A DNA stretch of 64,000 bases, from assembly GCA_019753175.1 (NCBI GenBank), contig JAIELK010000004.1, positions 1-64,000 of the forward strand, given 5' to 3'. The DNA comes from Hyphomonadaceae bacterium (GTDB taxonomy: Bacteria; Pseudomonadota; Alphaproteobacteria; Caulobacterales; Aquidulcibacteraceae). Below the pieces are notes generated by a model, which made no database searches, was not told where the DNA came from, and was given only the letters and a program-made list of their open reading frames with translations. Positions 8,020 to 64,000 of the stretch are shown in pieces (the first letter of the stretch is position 1; each line of letters begins with the position of its first letter). The position numbers and the translations under genes are program-made.

Positions 8020-8460
8020 GTGACCGACGCAGCCTGCATGCGCCGCGCGCTCGATCTGGCCGCGCAAGGCATGGGCCGCACGGGCGAAAACCCAAGCGTC
8101 GGCTGCGTGATCGTGAAAGACCGCGCCGTCGTCGCCGAAGCGCGCACCGCCGATGGCGGGCGCCCGCACGCGGAAGAACAAGCGCTGGCGCAAGCCGGCG
8201 CCGCCGCCCGCGGCGCGAGCGTTTATGTCACGCTGGAGCCATGCGCCAAGCGCAGCAACGGCGGCGTCTCATGCACCGATCTTCTGATCCAGGCCGGCGT
8301 CGCGCGCGTGGTTATCGCCGCGCGCGATCCGCACCCGTTCGCAAACGGCGTAGGTATCGAGCGTCTGCGCACGGCGGGGATCGTCGTCGAAACGGGCATC
8401 TACGAAGCCGAAGCCCGCACGCAGAACGCAGCGTTCTTTGTGAAGTGGGATTTCACCTAG
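8020..8460 (+). CDS. Stand-alone RibD-type cytidine/deoxycytidylate deaminase family protein
   Basis: A 146-residue zinc deaminase. Motifs: CMRRALDLAAQG, GENPSVGCVIVKD, the zinc/catalytic HAE in GRPHAEEQAL, and the second zinc motif in TLEPCAKRSNGGVSC. These match the N-terminal deaminase half of RibD (riboflavin synthesis), but the reductase half is absent and the protein ends about 30 residues after the fold. The PC...C spacer differs from the usual RibD SHHGRTPPC form, so a different substrate is possible. The GTG start is chosen for the GAGGGG ribosome site just upstream; a Met at 8038 is the alternative. Confidence 0.8.
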   Translation: MTDAACMRRALDLAAQGMGRTGENPSVGCVIVKDRAVVAEARTADGGRPHAEEQALAQAGAAARGASVYVTLEPCAKRSNGGVSCTDLLIQAGVARVVIAARDPHPFANGVGIERLRTAGIVVETGIYEAEARTQNAAFFVKWDFT

Positions 8461-9151
8461 GCGCTTCGCGTTGCGCGAATTCGGCGTTGTGTTTGATGTA
8501 GCGGTGTTCCGCTAGAGCTGAGGCTGAAAAACCTACGATCAACGGGCCGAGCCAAGGCCATATCGTAATGACACTGGTGTCCGCTTCCGGGAAAAGTTGG
8601 CGCAGCCCGATGCTCGCGAACGCGACGTGGGTTGCTATGCCGGCGCCGATCATGCCGCCGAAGTGCTCCTTCAGCCAGAAGCGCGGGTGGTCAGGAGGTT
8701 TGCGCCACATGCCGATGGCGCCGAATCCGATCAAGAGGCCGACGATCGACACGCCGGCAATGAACGGTTGTTGGGCCACAAGGCCGACACCGATCGCGCC
8801 CAAGGCGGCGATAATGTTGAGGACGCCGACGGGTAAGAACAGTCCGCGCGTATAGCCGAGGGCGTCGCCTTTGAAGTCGAGGGCGCGGCGTCCCATCCAC
8901 AGCGCGGTGGCGGTTATGGTGAGCAGATAGGCGAGGAACACGGCGCCCATCCATTGACCACGCGACAGGGTGGTCAGCGTGAGGACCGCAGCTGTGGCGA
9001 GCACCAGGACCATGGTCCAGACATAGGTCGCGCCCGCGCGCCGATGCAGCAGCCCTCCCTTGCGCGAGAATCCTGCGGTCCAAAGCGATGCAAAAGCCAG
9101 CGCGCCGACGCCGACATGCGCCCAGCGTGCGATCTCATGCAGCGTGTCCAT
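8453..9151 (-). CDS. Polytopic membrane protein, DUF2306-like
   Basis: A 232-residue protein with about seven hydrophobic helices. The N-terminus has HVGVGALAFASLWTAGFSRK, then GGLLHRRAGATYVWTM, the HxxxG...KGG..HRRxG pattern seen in DUF2306-type membrane proteins. Function unknown. The ATG at 9151 overlaps the 3' end of the padR gene by 17 nt, so it belongs to the PadR unit and is the likeliest target of PadR control. Its 3' end overlaps the convergent deaminase gene by 8 nt. Confidence 0.8.
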   Translation of the reverse strand: MDTLHEIARWAHVGVGALAFASLWTAGFSRKGGLLHRRAGATYVWTMVLVLATAAVLTLTTLSRGQWMGAVFLAYLLTITATALWMGRRALDFKGDALGYTRGLFLPVGVLNIIAALGAIGVGLVAQQPFIAGVSIVGLLIGFGAIGMWRKPPDHPRFWLKEHFGGMIGAGIATHVAFASIGLRQLFPEADTSVITIWPWLGPLIVGFSASALAEHRYIKHNAEFAQREAPR

Positions 9152-28674: not shown

Positions 28675-29499
28675 ATGCAAGTGTTCATAAGTTGGTCGGG
28701 CCAACTCAGCAAAGCCATAGCTGGTACATTGGCCACGTGGTTGCCTACGGTGCTCCAATCTGTCCGAACATATTACACGCCGAACGACACTGAGAAAGGT
28801 AGCCGGTGGTTCGAGGAAATCGCACAGCAGTTGGAGGCGTCGGCCTTCGGCATTGTCGTCTTGACGAAGAGCAATCTGGAGAAGCCCTGGATACACTTCG
28901 AGGCTGGCGCTCTGATTTCGCGACTGGAGCGCAAAGTTACGCCGCTTCTGATCCAAGTATCAGAGACAGATCTTAAGCCACCTCTTTCCTTGTTGAATGC
29001 AACCTTTCTCGAGAAGGAGGACATCAGACGTTTGGTTTCGAACATCAACGAGCAGTTTGGCGAAAAGCGTGTTCCATCGGATGCTGTGGATAGGGTCTTC
29101 GACAAGTTCTGGCCGGACCTGCTCGCCGCTGTCGAGAGTCATATTTTGGAGACAAGAGAAACGGCAAGACCACCGTCGTCGAAACGTGATCAGTCAGAGG
29201 TTCTGGAGGAGCTGGTTTCCATAGTTCGCGATCTTCAGCGCCGCCCGCATTCGATCGGCTCTTCTGGGGCCACGCTGACTTCGCTATCGCGCCGGCTCAT
29301 ATCCACGTTCACACAGCTGACCGGGTCGATAACAGACGATATCGACCGAGAAGAATGCCTCAACGTGCTGAGTAGAGTATGCGAGGATTATTGGAAAATC
29401 GTAGATAAAGCTCAAGTCGAGGAGCGCGCGCTGCTACTGGAGCAGTTAGATCGCGTGCGACGAAGTATTGTACGAGCGAAGGACGAGATACCGTTCTGA
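28675..29499 (+). CDS. TIR-domain protein with helical C-terminal domain
   Basis: A 274-residue protein. The N-terminal TIR domain (about 1-150) opens MQVFISWSGQLSKAIAGTLA, has GSRWFEEIAQQLEASAFGIV, and carries the candidate NADase Glu76 in PWIHFEAGAL, all in TIR-fold order. The C-terminal half (about 160-274) is helical and unrecognised. Base composition is visibly A/T-richer than neighbours, with rare codons such as ATA, AGA and TTA, and repeats lie on both sides. It is probably an acquired gene. TIR proteins of bacteria often hydrolyse NAD in phage defence, but no partner gene (Thoeris ThsA, STING, Argonaute) is seen here. Confidence 0.85.
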   Translation: MQVFISWSGQLSKAIAGTLATWLPTVLQSVRTYYTPNDTEKGSRWFEEIAQQLEASAFGIVVLTKSNLEKPWIHFEAGALISRLERKVTPLLIQVSETDLKPPLSLLNATFLEKEDIRRLVSNINEQFGEKRVPSDAVDRVFDKFWPDLLAAVESHILETRETARPPSSKRDQSEVLEELVSIVRDLQRRPHSIGSSGATLTSLSRRLISTFTQLTGSITDDIDREECLNVLSRVCEDYWKIVDKAQVEERALLLEQLDRVRRSIVRAKDEIPF

Positions 29500-57410: not shown

Positions 57411-57500
57411 GGATGCGTTTGCTACCGTCGAGACCGGAGGCGGAGTGCTTGCAAGCGCCCCTTTTTCAACGGCTGATCCAAGCTCGCCACGCTCATCCCT

Positions 57501-57608
57501 ACCCACGAATTCCCGGATTGCGCGCAGCGTAAGTCCGGGACCCAAGATCGCGAGCGTTCGTGTTTATGGGTCCCGGGCTCGCCGCTTTGCGGCGCCCCGG
57601 GAATGGGT
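57501..57608. repeat. Palindromic repeat copy 1
   Basis: Begins ACCCACGAATTCCCGGATTG and ends CGGCGCCCCGGGAATGGGT. Inner parts TCCGGGACCCA and TGGGTCCCGGG are inverse. The middle, around 57548-57566, differs from the other copies. Confidence 0.9.
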
Positions 57609-57671
57609 GAAACGTCGTGCAAGAAGTTGCGCTGGGCCTGATCCAAGCTCTCCTCAAGGTCATCGCCCAAC

Positions 57672-57778
57672 CACCCATTCCCGGATTGCGCGCAGCGCAA
57701 GTCCGGGACCCAAGATCACGGACGGATTGTGTTTATGGGTCCCGGGCTCGCCGCTTCGCGGCGTCCTGGGAATGGGTG
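57672..57778. repeat. Palindromic repeat copy 2
   Basis: Begins ACCCATTCCCGGATTGCGCG and ends TCCTGGGAATGGGT. It is nearly identical to copy 3, and in the same orientation, 33 bp before the GIY-YIG gene. Confidence 0.9.
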
Positions 57779-57811
57779 GTGGGGGTTGTTGTGATGTTGT
57801 AAGGGTTCTGG

Positions 57812-58144
57812 ATGCGTGTCGATGAAACGCGCCTGACTGCAACCTACATGCTCGCCAGCCGCAAGCATGGCACGTTGTACCTCGGCTCGGCGCTCGATCT
57901 GATCGCGCGCGTGAGCGAGCACAAGGCGGGGATTGGTTCGACGTTCACCGCGAAGTATGGCGTGACGCGCTTGGTTTGGTATCAGCCGTTCATGCTCGTG
58001 ACGGAGGCGCGCGATCGCGAGTACGCGATGAAGAAATGGCGGCGCGATTGGAAGACAAACCTGATCGAACGCGACAATCCGCATTGGGATGACTTGTTTC
58101 CGGTGTTGACCGGCGCGCAATTGACAAAATCGCCAACGCACTGA
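57812..58144 (+). CDS. GIY-YIG nuclease-domain protein (UPF0213-like)
   Basis: A 110-residue single-domain protein. TYMLASRKHGTLYLGSALDL corresponds to the GIY-YIG motif with Tyr and TLYLG, then RVSEHKAGIGSTFTAKYG with the Arg/His region, and YQPFMLVTEARDREYAMKKW with the catalytic Glu. It is a short member of the family with no DNA-binding module. Genes of this type are frequent near palindromic repeats in alphaproteobacteria, and here repeats flank it at 33 bp and 3 bp in the same orientation. Role unknown. Confidence 0.88.
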   Translation: MRVDETRLTATYMLASRKHGTLYLGSALDLIARVSEHKAGIGSTFTAKYGVTRLVWYQPFMLVTEARDREYAMKKWRRDWKTNLIERDNPHWDDLFPVLTGAQLTKSPTH

Positions 58145-58147
58145 CAC

Positions 58148-58252
58148 ACCCATTCCCGGATTGCGCGCAGCGCAAGTCCGGGACCCAAGATCACGGACGG
58201 ATCGCGTTTATGGGTCCCGGGCTCGCCGCTTTGCGGCGCCCCGGGAATGGGT
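58148..58252. repeat. Palindromic repeat copy 3
   Basis: Begins ACCCATTCCCGGATTGCGCG and ends GCGCCCCGGGAATGGGT, 3 bp after the GIY-YIG stop. Same orientation and nearly the same sequence as copy 2. Confidence 0.9.
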
Positions 58253-58295
58253 GGCGGGTTTTGGCGAACGGGAATTTCTGCTATCCTCCCGCCCC

Positions 58296-60511: not shown

Positions 60512-60886
60512 TTAGCGTCCGCGGCCGTCCAACAGCGCCAGCAGGCCGAAAAGGCTGACCACCGTAAACCAGATCAGCAGCACGAGGCTCGCCAATCCGG
60601 CGAGCCAGATGATCGGGATGCCAATCAGAACGATCGCAAGCACGACGCCGATCGCCCCGACGATCCAGATCGCCAGCGTCCACCAGAACGCGGTCCACCA
60701 TATGCGGATCTGATGGTCGAGATGCGATCGGGCCAGGCCCGCGGCTTCGGCCCGGCCGACATAGGCAACGATCAGCCCGACCAAAGCCAGGACGCCAGCG
60801 CTGGGGATGCTCAGCAGGTAGAGCACGTAGGTCAGCAGTGCGGCGCCGCGGCCCCGTTCGCTGGAATAGGTGGCGGTATCGGTCAT
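60512..60886 (-). CDS. DUF4870-like small membrane protein
   Basis: A 124-residue protein with three hydrophobic helices. SERGRGAALLTYVLYLLSIP and RSHLDHQIRIWWTAFWWTL follow the DUF4870 layout. Function unknown. Its ATG overlaps the xerD stop by 4 nt, so it is co-translated with the recombinase. The 111-bp gap to the DUF4198 start holds no gene. Confidence 0.85.
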   Translation of the reverse strand: MTDTATYSSERGRGAALLTYVLYLLSIPSAGVLALVGLIVAYVGRAEAAGLARSHLDHQIRIWWTAFWWTLAIWIVGAIGVVLAIVLIGIPIIWLAGLASLVLLIWFTVVSLFGLLALLDGRGR

Positions 60887-61794
60887 GCTTTCCCTTTCTT
60901 GCGCGCCAGCGGATGCTTGGTCTCCAGCAGCGTCCGCAACCGCCCTTCGGCGACGTGTGTGTAGATTTGCGTGGTAGCGATGTCGGCGTGGCCGAGCAAT
61001 GTCTGCACCGTGCGGAGGTCGGCGCCGCCCTCCACCATGTGTGTTGCGAAGGCGTGTCGCAAGACGTGTGGCGACACCTTGGCCGGATCGAGCCCAGCCT
61101 TAAGCGCCGCTGCTTCAAGGATCTGCGCCACGCGCCTGCGGGTCAGCTTGCCATCGGCGGCTGACGACGAGGGGAACAGAAACCGCGCCGCCTTCTCGCG
61201 TCGGGCTTCGAGCTTCGGCAGCAGCGCCTCGCGCGCGGCCAGATGGGTCTCCAGCGCTGCGATCGCGTGGCGCCCCAGCATGACGAGGCGTTCCTTGCCG
61301 CCCTTGCCCTCGACCATCATCTGCTGTTGGCCGGGCTTGGGCGCGGCGCGCAGCGGCAGCGAAACGAGTTCGCTCACCCGCAGGCCAGCGCCATAGAGCA
61401 GCTCGATCAGCGCTCTGTCGCGCGGGCTCTCCGCCGCCGCGATCAAGCGCTCGATCTCCGCCACGGACAGTGTTTTCGGCAGCGTGCGAGCGCGTTTGGG
61501 CGGATCGAGCCGCGACGTGGGATCGTCGCCGCGCAGGTTTTCCTGGAGCAGGAAGCGAAAGAACTGCTTGAGCGCCGAGATGCGCCGCCGCGCCGTGGCT
61601 GCGCTCAGCCCACGCCGCGCCAGGCCCGCAACATAGGCTTCCAGCGTCTCGGCGCTGGCTGCCGCCAGTGCGCCCGCGGTGTTGGCGCGCGCGTCGTCGA
61701 GATCGCGCTTGTAGGCGTCGAGCGTATTGGCGCGCGCGCCGCGCTCTGCCGACAGCATTTCCAAGAACGCCTCGATCAGCGCGGAATCGGACAT
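60883..61794 (-). CDS. xerD: Site-specific tyrosine recombinase XerD
   Basis: A 303-residue recombinase that resolves chromosome dimers at dif with XerC. The N-terminal core-binding domain (FLEMLSAERGARANTLDAYK) precedes the catalytic domain. Catalytic features are GAGLRVSELVSLPLR, HVLRHAFATHMVEGGADLRT (HxxR), LLGHADIATTQIYTH with the nucleophilic Tyr. xerC is not in the window. It is coupled to the DUF4870 gene and divergent from the TIR fusion gene across 78 bp. Confidence 0.93.
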   Translation of the reverse strand: MSDSALIEAFLEMLSAERGARANTLDAYKRDLDDARANTAGALAAASAETLEAYVAGLARRGLSAATARRRISALKQFFRFLLQENLRGDDPTSRLDPPKRARTLPKTLSVAEIERLIAAAESPRDRALIELLYGAGLRVSELVSLPLRAAPKPGQQQMMVEGKGGKERLVMLGRHAIAALETHLAAREALLPKLEARREKAARFLFPSSSAADGKLTRRRVAQILEAAALKAGLDPAKVSPHVLRHAFATHMVEGGADLRTVQTLLGHADIATTQIYTHVAEGRLRTLLETKHPLARKKGKA

Positions 61795-61872
61795 CGGAAC
61801 AGCCTAGCACAGGCGGCGGGGTTGGCCTTTACCCTCCTTGTGCCCTAGCCTGGCGCTGGGAGAGGGGTTCGG

Positions 61873-62859
61873 ATGTTCTGGAACAAGAAGGAAAAACCTG
61901 TCGAGACGACGGCGCCCGCCGAAGCGGTGGAGACAACAGCGCTCACGAAACCGGCGATTGAGGTGCCTGCGCTGCCCCCAAAGGCCGCTGCCGCGGGCGG
62001 CGTGTTCATCAGTTATCGCCGCTCATCGGCGCTGATCACGGATCACGTCCACGAAAAAGTCACCACGCGATTGGCAGGTGCGCCGGTATTCTTGGACCGC
62101 AATGACATTGAGCCCGGCGCCGCGTTTCCTGCGCGATTGCGCGACGCTGTATCCAGCGCCTCCATCGTGTTGGTGATCATCGGCCGCGACTGGATTTCAG
62201 CCCAGGACGAGCGGACCTTTCGCCGCCGACTCGACATGCCCAATGATTGGGTGCGTCAGGAAGTTGAGGCGGCGCTCGGCGGCGACGCTTTGGTGATCCC
62301 GGTACTGGTCGAAGGGATTCCGATGCCCACCGCCGAGCAGCTGCCGGATTCCATTGTCGCGCTGTCCGAGAAAAACGCCATTACCCTGTCACGCGACCAC
62401 TTCAACGAGGACGTCAACAAACTGATCGACTTTCTCGCGGCGCGATTGCCCCGCCGGGCGAACGATGGCGAAAACGGCGTGAAATTTCCTGAACCTGCAG
62501 TCGTTCGGCCGGTGCCGCTATCGCCGGAGCAGCTTGCTCACGTGCTGAAGAGTTTGCCGCAATGGCGCGTATCAGAGACGCACCTCAACGACGACCCGCG
62601 CTTCGGTGTAGAGCATCGACGCGTCGAGCTGGTCCGTGAGTTTCGCTTCAAGAGCTTCAAGTCCGCCATCGACTTCATGCGCGCCGCCGCCGACATCATC
62701 GATGCCCACGGCCATCACCCGCGCTGGGAAAATGTATTTCGCACCGTTACGGTTTGGCTGAGCACATGGGACATCGGGCATCGGCCCTCTGACCGCGACT
62801 GGAAGGCGGCGCAGATGCTGGAGGACATCTACAAGAAGTACGCGTCGCAGGATCGTTGA
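61873..62859 (+). CDS. TIR domain fused to a pterin-4a-carbinolamine dehydratase domain
   Basis: A 328-residue fusion. After a 40-residue Ala/Pro/Thr linker comes a TIR domain (about 43-190): GVFISYRRSSALITDHVH, FLDRNDIEPGAAFPARLR, SIVLVIIGRDWIS, and the candidate catalytic Glu130 in DWVRQEVEAALGGD. The C-terminal domain (about 215-325) is a PCD/DCoH fold: LSPEQLAHVLKSLPQWRV, REFRFKSFKSAIDFM, and the active-site run D277-x3-H281-H282-P283-x5-F289-x9-W299-x9-D309. That matches the published PCD motif, with Trp at the third histidine position. Start codon choice is simple, with GGGG upstream. Base composition is like the genome. Function unknown; possibly NAD hydrolysis coupled to a pterin ligand or dimerisation. 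Confidence 0.85.
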   Translation: MFWNKKEKPVETTAPAEAVETTALTKPAIEVPALPPKAAAAGGVFISYRRSSALITDHVHEKVTTRLAGAPVFLDRNDIEPGAAFPARLRDAVSSASIVLVIIGRDWISAQDERTFRRRLDMPNDWVRQEVEAALGGDALVIPVLVEGIPMPTAEQLPDSIVALSEKNAITLSRDHFNEDVNKLIDFLAARLPRRANDGENGVKFPEPAVVRPVPLSPEQLAHVLKSLPQWRVSETHLNDDPRFGVEHRRVELVREFRFKSFKSAIDFMRAAADIIDAHGHHPRWENVFRTVTVWLSTWDIGHRPSDRDWKAAQMLEDIYKKYASQDR

Positions 62860-62876
62860 AGGAACCGCACGACTTG

Positions 62877-64000
62877 TCAGCTCGGCTGGCCAGCCAAAAT
62901 CGCTTCGACCGCAATGCGGCGCGCATCCGCTTCGAGGCCAAGCGCGCGCAGCGAGCGGATGATGCGCTCCAGGCTTTCCGCGTCGAGCCGGGCGGGGCCT
63001 GCCTCGCTGCTGGCGACGATTGCGAGCAGGGCGCCTTCGCCAACGGCGCGCCGCTCGACAGCGCCCGCTAGCGCCACCAGCGCCCCGGCGTCGCCTTGCA
63101 CGCCGCCCTGCGGCGTATTGCGGAGCAGCGCCGATTGCGCCGCTCCCTCCAATTGCACGCCGAGGCCGGCGAGGATGGCGAGGTCGCGCGCAGCCGAGCG
63201 CGGCTGCGAGGCGCCGCGATCGATGCGCCGCTGAACCACGGTTGCGTCGACGCTGTTGCTGAGCACGGCGAGCGCGAGATCGAGCGGCGCAAGCGCTGCT
63301 TCATCGACGCCGGCCGCGCGGGCGCTAGCGACAAGCCGCTGCGACACCGCGACGTCGCCGGTGATCAGCGAGGCGCGCGCAAACATCAGCGCGGCCGCGT
63401 GATCGGGCGCGGTCTGCAACGCGGCAATGTCGGCCTGGAAGAAGCGCGCCGCCGCTTCGAACTCAGCGGCCACGCCGGCTTGGCGCAGCACCGTCGCGAT
63501 TGCAGTGGCCGCCTCGATCGAACCGGGCGCGGCGTCGACTTGGCGCAGCGCGCCAGCAATCACCGGCAAGCCCGTGGTTATCGTCGCGGGCGTTGCGCGC
63601 AGGATGGTGCGCGTTTCGGCCGCGGTCAGCGCGCCGCGCCGGTAGGCGAGCGCCGTAGCTTGCGCGCGCACCGGCTGCTGCGTCGCTTCGCTCCGCGCCA
63701 GCGCGACCAGCGACAGTGTTGAAACGTCGGCGAGCGGGTTGGCGCCTGGGCGCAAATTCCCCGCCAGCGACAATTGCGTGGTCAGTGCGTTTTCGTAGCG
63801 TGCAGCTGGCGGACGCGCCGGCGCTGCGCCGCCGGCTGCGGCGACCGCGCCGGCGAACCAAGCGTCTTCGGCGGCGTTGGTGCGTGCGAGCGACAAAGCG
63901 AGATCAGCAGCGGCGCGATCGCCGGCGGCGGCGGCGCAATAGGCGCGCAAGCGCAGGAGCAACGCGGGCGGCGGGTCGCCGAAATTGGCGCCGCGCCCGC
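62877..64000 (-). CDS. Alanine-rich helical repeat protein (N-terminal part outside window)
   Basis: The frame is open to the right edge, so the gene is incomplete; 373 codons are visible. The product is Ala/Leu/Arg-rich and almost all helical, of TPR- or HEAT-like character (FFQADIAALQTAPDHAAALM, IIRSLRALGLEADARRIAVE). I know similar proteins only as conserved hypotheticals of alphaproteobacteria. It is convergent to the TIR fusion gene with a 17-bp gap. The end is LAGQPS. Confidence 0.75.
   Translation of the reverse strand, partial: GRGANFGDPPPALLLRLRAYCAAAAGDRAAADLALSLARTNAAEDAWFAGAVAAAGGAAPARPPAARYENALTTQLSLAGNLRPGANPLADVSTLSLVALARSEATQQPVRAQATALAYRRGALTAAETRTILRATPATITTGLPVIAGALRQVDAAPGSIEAATAIATVLRQAGVAAEFEAAARFFQADIAALQTAPDHAAALMFARASLITGDVAVSQRLVASARAAGVDEAALAPLDLALAVLSNSVDATVVQRRIDRGASQPRSAARDLAILAGLGVQLEGAAQSALLRNTPQGGVQGDAGALVALAGAVERRAVGEGALLAIVASSEAGPARLDAESLERIIRSLRALGLEADARRIAVEAILAGQPS

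Follow-up and report, generated by a model that had tools for sequence, protein, structure and literature searches.

Near the right end of the DNA examined here, a window of 64,000 nucleotides from a Hyphomonadaceae bacterium, a single gene encodes an N-terminal TIR domain followed by a pterin carbinolamine dehydratase (PCD/DCoH) domain. This pairing of TIR and PCD in one gene is real and rare. We tentatively read the product as an accessory one-gene effector of an immune type, in which the PCD/DCoH part would be a divergent multimerising module that controls a TIR NADase; we hold this reading to be somewhat short of probable. The PCD/DCoH module is perhaps also ligand-sensing. The coordinates of the gene, its parts and its two neighbours are collected in Table 1.

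Table 1 Features of the TIR-PCD gene and its borders in the window
Feature	Position	Strand	Basis or remark
xerD-like tyrosine recombinase, left border	60883..61794	-	Pfam Phage_integrase; matched in 27 of 29 other genus members
TIR-PCD fusion gene	61873..62859	+	328 aa, ATG to stop
N-terminal extension, residues 1-43	61873..62001	+	Translation; pLDDT <50 at residues 1-9 and 11-40
TIR_2 domain, residues 44-185	62002..62427	+	Pfam
Glu130 codon	62260..62262	+	Aligned with SARM1 position 642
Interdomain linker, residues 186-214	62428..62514	+	Pfam domain borders; pLDDT <50 at residues 195-216
Pterin_4a/PCD/DCoH domain, residues 215-318	62515..62826	+	Pfam, fold match
HHPRWENVFRTVTVWLSTWD: HHP motif and Trp299 replacing the usual His	62713..62772	+	PCD alignment
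Right border gene, cut by the window end	62877..63998	-	Matched in 24 of 29 other genus members

A sequence-only reading of this DNA had proposed that one frame holds both domains, and the profile searches agree. Both Pfam matches are significant and well over their cut-offs: TIR_2 (PF13676) with 56.9 bits (cut-off 28, E 3.9e-15) and Pterin_4a (PF01329) with 67.9 bits (cut-off 26, E 8.6e-19). A frame error fusing two genes is ruled out by the open frame, which runs uninterrupted over 336 codons from stop to stop, and by a homologous pairing in another phylum, where a single frame of the Rhodococcus jostii RHA1 copy spans the C-terminal half of the TIR domain through the PCD domain. By direct reading, GGGAGAGGGG lies directly 5' of the ATG. 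No promoter and no terminator was found in a scan of positions 61700-63000. In the predicted structure pLDDT is low over most of residues 1-43 and 186-214; the first stretch is probably a disordered, flexible extension and the second resembles a linker.

The TIR half carries the landmarks named in the sequence-only reading, i.e. ISYRR, RNDIEPG and E130 within DWVRQEVEAAL. SARM1 was among its best relatives in a PDB sequence search (best E 1.9e-8), and a SARM1 chain held the top Foldseek rank (E 1.9e-7). The sequence alignment places DWVRQE over DWVHKE of SARM1, so that Glu130 corresponds to SARM1 position 642, the residue altered in PDB entry 7cm7, titled E642A. By this alignment the catalytic glutamate of NAD-cleaving TIR domains is present. 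The TIR part of the predicted structure is weak (block pLDDT 38-66), as the folding alignment contained no close TIR homologues. The closest genome relatives of this half are TIR domains with at most 43% identity; two of ten such relatives carry an FGE-sulfatase domain as their C-terminal part, and the other eight have no second Pfam domain over the cut-off. Against defence models the protein gave only weak TIR matches, to ThcB4 in NCBIfam (25.9 bits, cut-off 220) and to ThsB in PADLOC (E 0.0033).

TIR domains are found elsewhere in the same genome. Its 3.13 Mb include 16 TIR_2 matches, 14 of them over the Pfam cut-off and several clustered (e.g. C16:12117-17221, C21:56104-59128 and C6:53339-59360); none of the stretches containing the other 15 matched the fused TIR domain in phmmer at E 1e-5. 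One of these genes lies in the window itself (28675-29499, plus strand, 274 aa; likewise no match to the fused TIR at E 1e-5) and was possibly acquired, given its low GC (0.53 vs 0.66). We also observed a TIR gene on Paraburkholderia sp. PGU19 plasmid NZ_AP023182.1 (L195) that appears as two adjoining open stretches in one frame.

The PCD half matched PCD/DCoH chains in a PDB sequence search (best 2v6u, E 2.2e-9). Of the ten blocks of its predicted structure between residues 231 and 328, nine have pLDDT 74-93 and one has 59; the values are lower at residues 211-230 (pLDDT 39-52). The model superposes on 2ebb (Z 12.6, rmsd 2.6, 96 aligned residues), on DCoH 3hxa (Z 12.2, rmsd 2.2, 95 aligned) and on the Rubisco assembly factor 4low (Z 10.3, rmsd 2.0, 78 aligned).

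The PCD active-site motif had been described as complete, which holds for a part of it. The family pattern, reportedly given in the PCD family paper Naponelli 2008, is [EDKH]x3H[HN][PCS]x5-6[YWF]x9[HW]x8-15D. All 57 PCD rows of our alignment fit this pattern, the TIR-PCD protein among them, with HHP at residues 281-283 and the final Asp at Asp309. At the [HW] place, however, both fused PCDs have Trp, whereas all 55 others have His. In the TIR-PCD protein, Trp299 thus replaces the second catalytic histidine of PCD, presumably the equivalent of His79 of rat DCoH. The HHP, the acidic residue preceding it and the final Asp are common to both fused PCDs, and the retention of these remaining residues would be equally compatible with continued pterin binding by the domain. 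Searching DNA with the exact pattern HHPxW-13-WD for other PCDs of the Trp type matched 4 of 398 phylum genomes, and of these matches the TIR-PCD gene alone is a PCD. The other hits are best taken as chance, since a reversed control pattern hit 7 genomes; the three other phylum hits (L198-L200) and 29 viral-contig hits had no frame matching the PCD profile at E 1 and were rejected.

In a PCD tree the query and the Rhodococcus copy pair with support of 99/96 and stand separate from the 55 PCDs that lack a TIR domain; the alignment has 72 columns, the bootstrap is unsettled, both fused rows are flagged as long branches and all rows were gathered with a profile built from the two fused PCDs. The 55 comparison PCDs are matches from this analysis with no TIR match in frame, including the genome's own second PCD. 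The latter is an ordinary PCD on contig C27 (E 1.2e-31, open frame of 109 aa); derivation of the fused PCD half as a copy of it was considered and is not supported by the tree.

The only other copy found lies on plasmid pRHL1 of Rhodococcus jostii RHA1, in another phylum. Among 72,556 plasmid records, six matched and only pRHL1 covers both domains. Two separate pieces of the RHA1 copy together cover 85% of the query at 34.5% identity. One is N-terminal TIR sequence (L054 7938-8243); the other (8206-8889) holds the remainder of the TIR domain and the PCD. These pieces are in different frames, and the RHA1 gene is therefore frame-shifted as deposited, which leaves one known intact TIR-PCD copy. 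Pfam recognised TIR_2 in the first piece (29.4 bits, cut-off 28) and Pterin_4a in the second (68.2 bits). The PCD parts of the two proteins are 39% identical. The TIR halves were not recovered as sisters in a tree of 32 rows, where the RHA1 TIR, a long branch, grouped with a Streptomyces TIR (96/83); this tree omits the split TIR L195, the partial sequence L017 and second-domain hits. Forcing both fusion TIRs together cost 5.27 log units (p-AU 0.062), again with the RHA1 row long-branched, so that a sister relation is neither established nor refuted. By eye, the surroundings of the RHA1 copy include IS3-type transposase-like ORF pieces and a tyrosine integrase-like ORF. A further ORF close by (L054 9465-9968) looks, likewise by eye, like a small protein of a nucleotide-binding or TIR-like kind and is a possible partner.

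No fusion was found in 59 other family members, in which all candidates were scored, nor was any seen in 60 relatives. None was seen either in 384 genomes of the class, 397 of the phylum and 397 of the order, overlapping samples in which at most five first-look candidates per genome were scored, so that a weak copy could be missed. Searching 29 other genus members with the PCD half gave at most 49.4 bits, compared to 346.5 for the TIR-PCD gene. Genome contigs yielded no loci with the whole protein and, with the PCD alignment, eight Bacteroidota loci of 79-106 codons that are not relevant; these searches use narrow peptide patterns and would miss relatives with other letters there. Viral contigs, phages and PHROGs held nothing relevant to TIR-PCD. 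Absence from related genomes had been named beforehand as speaking against the fusion. The near relatives do lack it, but the pairing in RHA1 argues against a single-genome artefact.

Both direct neighbours lie on the strand opposite to the TIR-PCD gene, and the right one has no Pfam match at E 0.01. The two border genes share one contig in 21 genus members, as judged by coordinates, and we examined the interval in 20 of these (G014 was left out). The distance between the matched parts of the two border genes is 1,085 bp here and ranges from 2 bp (G026) and 66 bp (G007) up to 2,334 bp (G010). The contents of this slot (window positions 61795-62876) differ across the 20 members: it is nearly empty or filled with other ORFs, among them by eye an ATP-grasp-like ORF, a ParE-like pair and an amidinotransferase-like ORF, and in none of the 20 is there a PCD or TIR match. 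Within 12 kb further to the right, the five ORFs checked encode shikimate kinase, DHQ synthase, CNNM/CorC, ArgJ and SecA. No pterin gene was recognised among the neighbouring ORFs looked at, and the seven ORFs around the TIR-PCD gene, including both direct neighbours, gave no PADLOC match at E 0.001.

The earlier view that the gene is not obviously acquired does not survive this comparison, given the variable slot in 20 genus members and the absence of the gene from 59 other family genomes. The GC content of the gene is 0.613 (ORF mean 0.660, sd 0.035; three of 45 ORFs are lower), with an ordinary GC3. As the slot is variable, and nearly empty or otherwise filled in the 20 relatives, the genomic comparison suggests that TIR-PCD was probably gained by its own lineage, in a variable slot within a core region; loss in all other lineages is less simple than gain. 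The interval from xerD to the right border gene, here and in the 20 members (L164-L183), is a possible insertion hotspot. Elsewhere in the window, positions 57498-58263 contain direct repeats that are imperfect: two families with three copies each of 52-55 nt and one with two copies of 117 nt. Amid these repeats lies a small GIY-YIG ORF (57812-58144).

For this protein we infer NAD cleavage, multimers, a trigger and a role in defence. The N-terminal TIR domain would cleave NAD+, but only once several TIR domains have been gathered. The PCD/DCoH part would no longer chiefly recycle pterins and would keep the TIR domains in dimeric or tetrameric form. These multimers may be rearranged or clustered by a trigger, which could be a protein of the phage or of the host, or else a ligand occupying what was once the pterin pocket; the TIR domains would then form composite active sites and cleave NAD+, and the cell, infected or stressed, would be arrested or killed. 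Several published sources describe components of such a scheme. TIR activity requires self-association, which fused domains help (PMC8635717). The dimeric TIR protein SpbK binds a phage portal protein through its other domain, and its TIR domains are thereby clustered (PMC12847820). Dimers and tetramers are formed by PCD proteins; one of them, the inactive Raf2, has been seen in both states and acts in assembly (PMC5859369). A putative dimerising or sensing role of the PCD part agrees with the evidence.

Gating by a pterin-like ligand stays an option through the conserved acidic, HHP and Asp residues. The PCD could accordingly be a true ligand sensor, for a reduced pterin, a molybdopterin-like or another compound, whose gain or loss switches the TIR NADase on. 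The protein would then read the pterin/folate state, e.g. when phages remodel folate metabolism. A pure scaffold would have no need of the HHP, its preceding acidic residue or the final Asp, all of which both fused PCDs keep, and ligand-gated TIR proteins do exist, SARM1 being gated by NMN and NAD+ (PMC8635717). However, a catalytic His has given way to Trp and the neighbouring ORFs looked at include no recognised pterin gene, and we regard this reading as a serious but minor possibility. It is quite unlikely, in our view, that the protein is a bifunctional enzyme whose PCD still dehydrates 4a-hydroxytetrahydropterins beside a separate NAD chemistry of the TIR domain. The family pattern permits either His or Trp and fits the protein, and the NCBIfam dehydratase equivalogs (PRK00823) do match, but all five models stay below their cut-offs (best 59.6 vs 108 bits). 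Among the 57 PCDs, moreover, Trp is confined to the fused pair, and the genome has its other PCD and no match to Biopterin_H, in a search for which the Caulobacter vibrioides control was positive.

The Glu130 and the DWVxxE context of SARM1 stand against a TIR domain devoid of enzyme activity, i.e. an adaptor in which both domains serve assembly. Scaffold TIR domains exist (PMC8635717), and DCoH is a protein-binding coactivator by the titles of its PDB entries; we nonetheless judge such an adaptor highly improbable. The occurrence in one of 60 family genomes and the frame-shifted state of the Rhodococcus copy would fit a fusion that arose by chance, has little or no function, was gained recently and will probably decay. 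Yet both motifs are kept in the intact copy, and one PCD type is common to two copies in two phyla. As the TIR halves were not recovered as sisters, two separate joinings may have occurred, which would argue against pure chance. We hold such a chance fusion to be very unlikely.

In its general plan, the proposed multimer-controlled TIR effector resembles single-protein TIR NADases of defence such as SpbK of Bacillus subtilis, likewise one polypeptide with a TIR domain and an assembling or sensing domain. In SpbK, however, a four-helix bundle forms the N-terminal part and the TIR domain the C-terminal one (PMC12847820), in contrast to the N-terminal TIR domain and PCD-fold partner found here. 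The likeness to SARM1 lies in the TIR half (PDB sequence relatives, Foldseek rank and Glu130 at 642), whereas SARM1 is regulated by an ARM domain (PMC8635717) and has SAM domains (PMC12847820) and no PCD. PCD/DCoH enzymes (PF01329, COG2154) share the profile, the fold and the HHP...Asp pattern, but TIR-PCD differs in its fused TIR domain, in the Trp at the second catalytic His and in its separate grouping in the tree. Raf2, the alpha-carboxysome Rubisco assembly factor (acRAF), likewise uses the PCD fold for assembly and not for catalysis, but it is without TIR and tied to Rubisco (PMC5859369). Thoeris proteins (ThsB, ThcB4) share the TIR domain, including the weak NCBIfam match to ThcB4; TIR-PCD is far under the ThcB4 cut-off and has no neighbouring ThsA-type effector among the seven ORFs compared with PADLOC at E 0.001.

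That no system of this architecture had been described fits our literature searches. No description of TIR-PCD, no paper on TIR with PCD or dehydratase and no link between TIR, pterin and anti-phage activity was found in the full texts searched, a body outside which most subscription papers lie. Apart from one on cardiomyocytes, the full texts that name both a TIR domain and pterin are unrelated.

TIR-PCD adds to the modular TIR effectors, a known kind. TIR proteins are controlled by their fused domains, and each new partner therefore points to a new trigger or a new way of assembly. Within the literature searched, a PCD/DCoH partner would for the first time tie a TIR effector to a pterin-enzyme fold, a fold already turned from an enzyme into an assembly factor (Raf2) and a coactivator (DCoH). 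More specifically, though we consider it unlikely, the two fusions may represent horizontally spread, pterin-gated immune NADases in which the altered PCD binds a pterin-like ligand and gates the TIR sites through a dimer or tetramer. If true, such a pterin-gated TIR-PCD would let the cell sense a disturbance of pterin or folate as a sign of infection.
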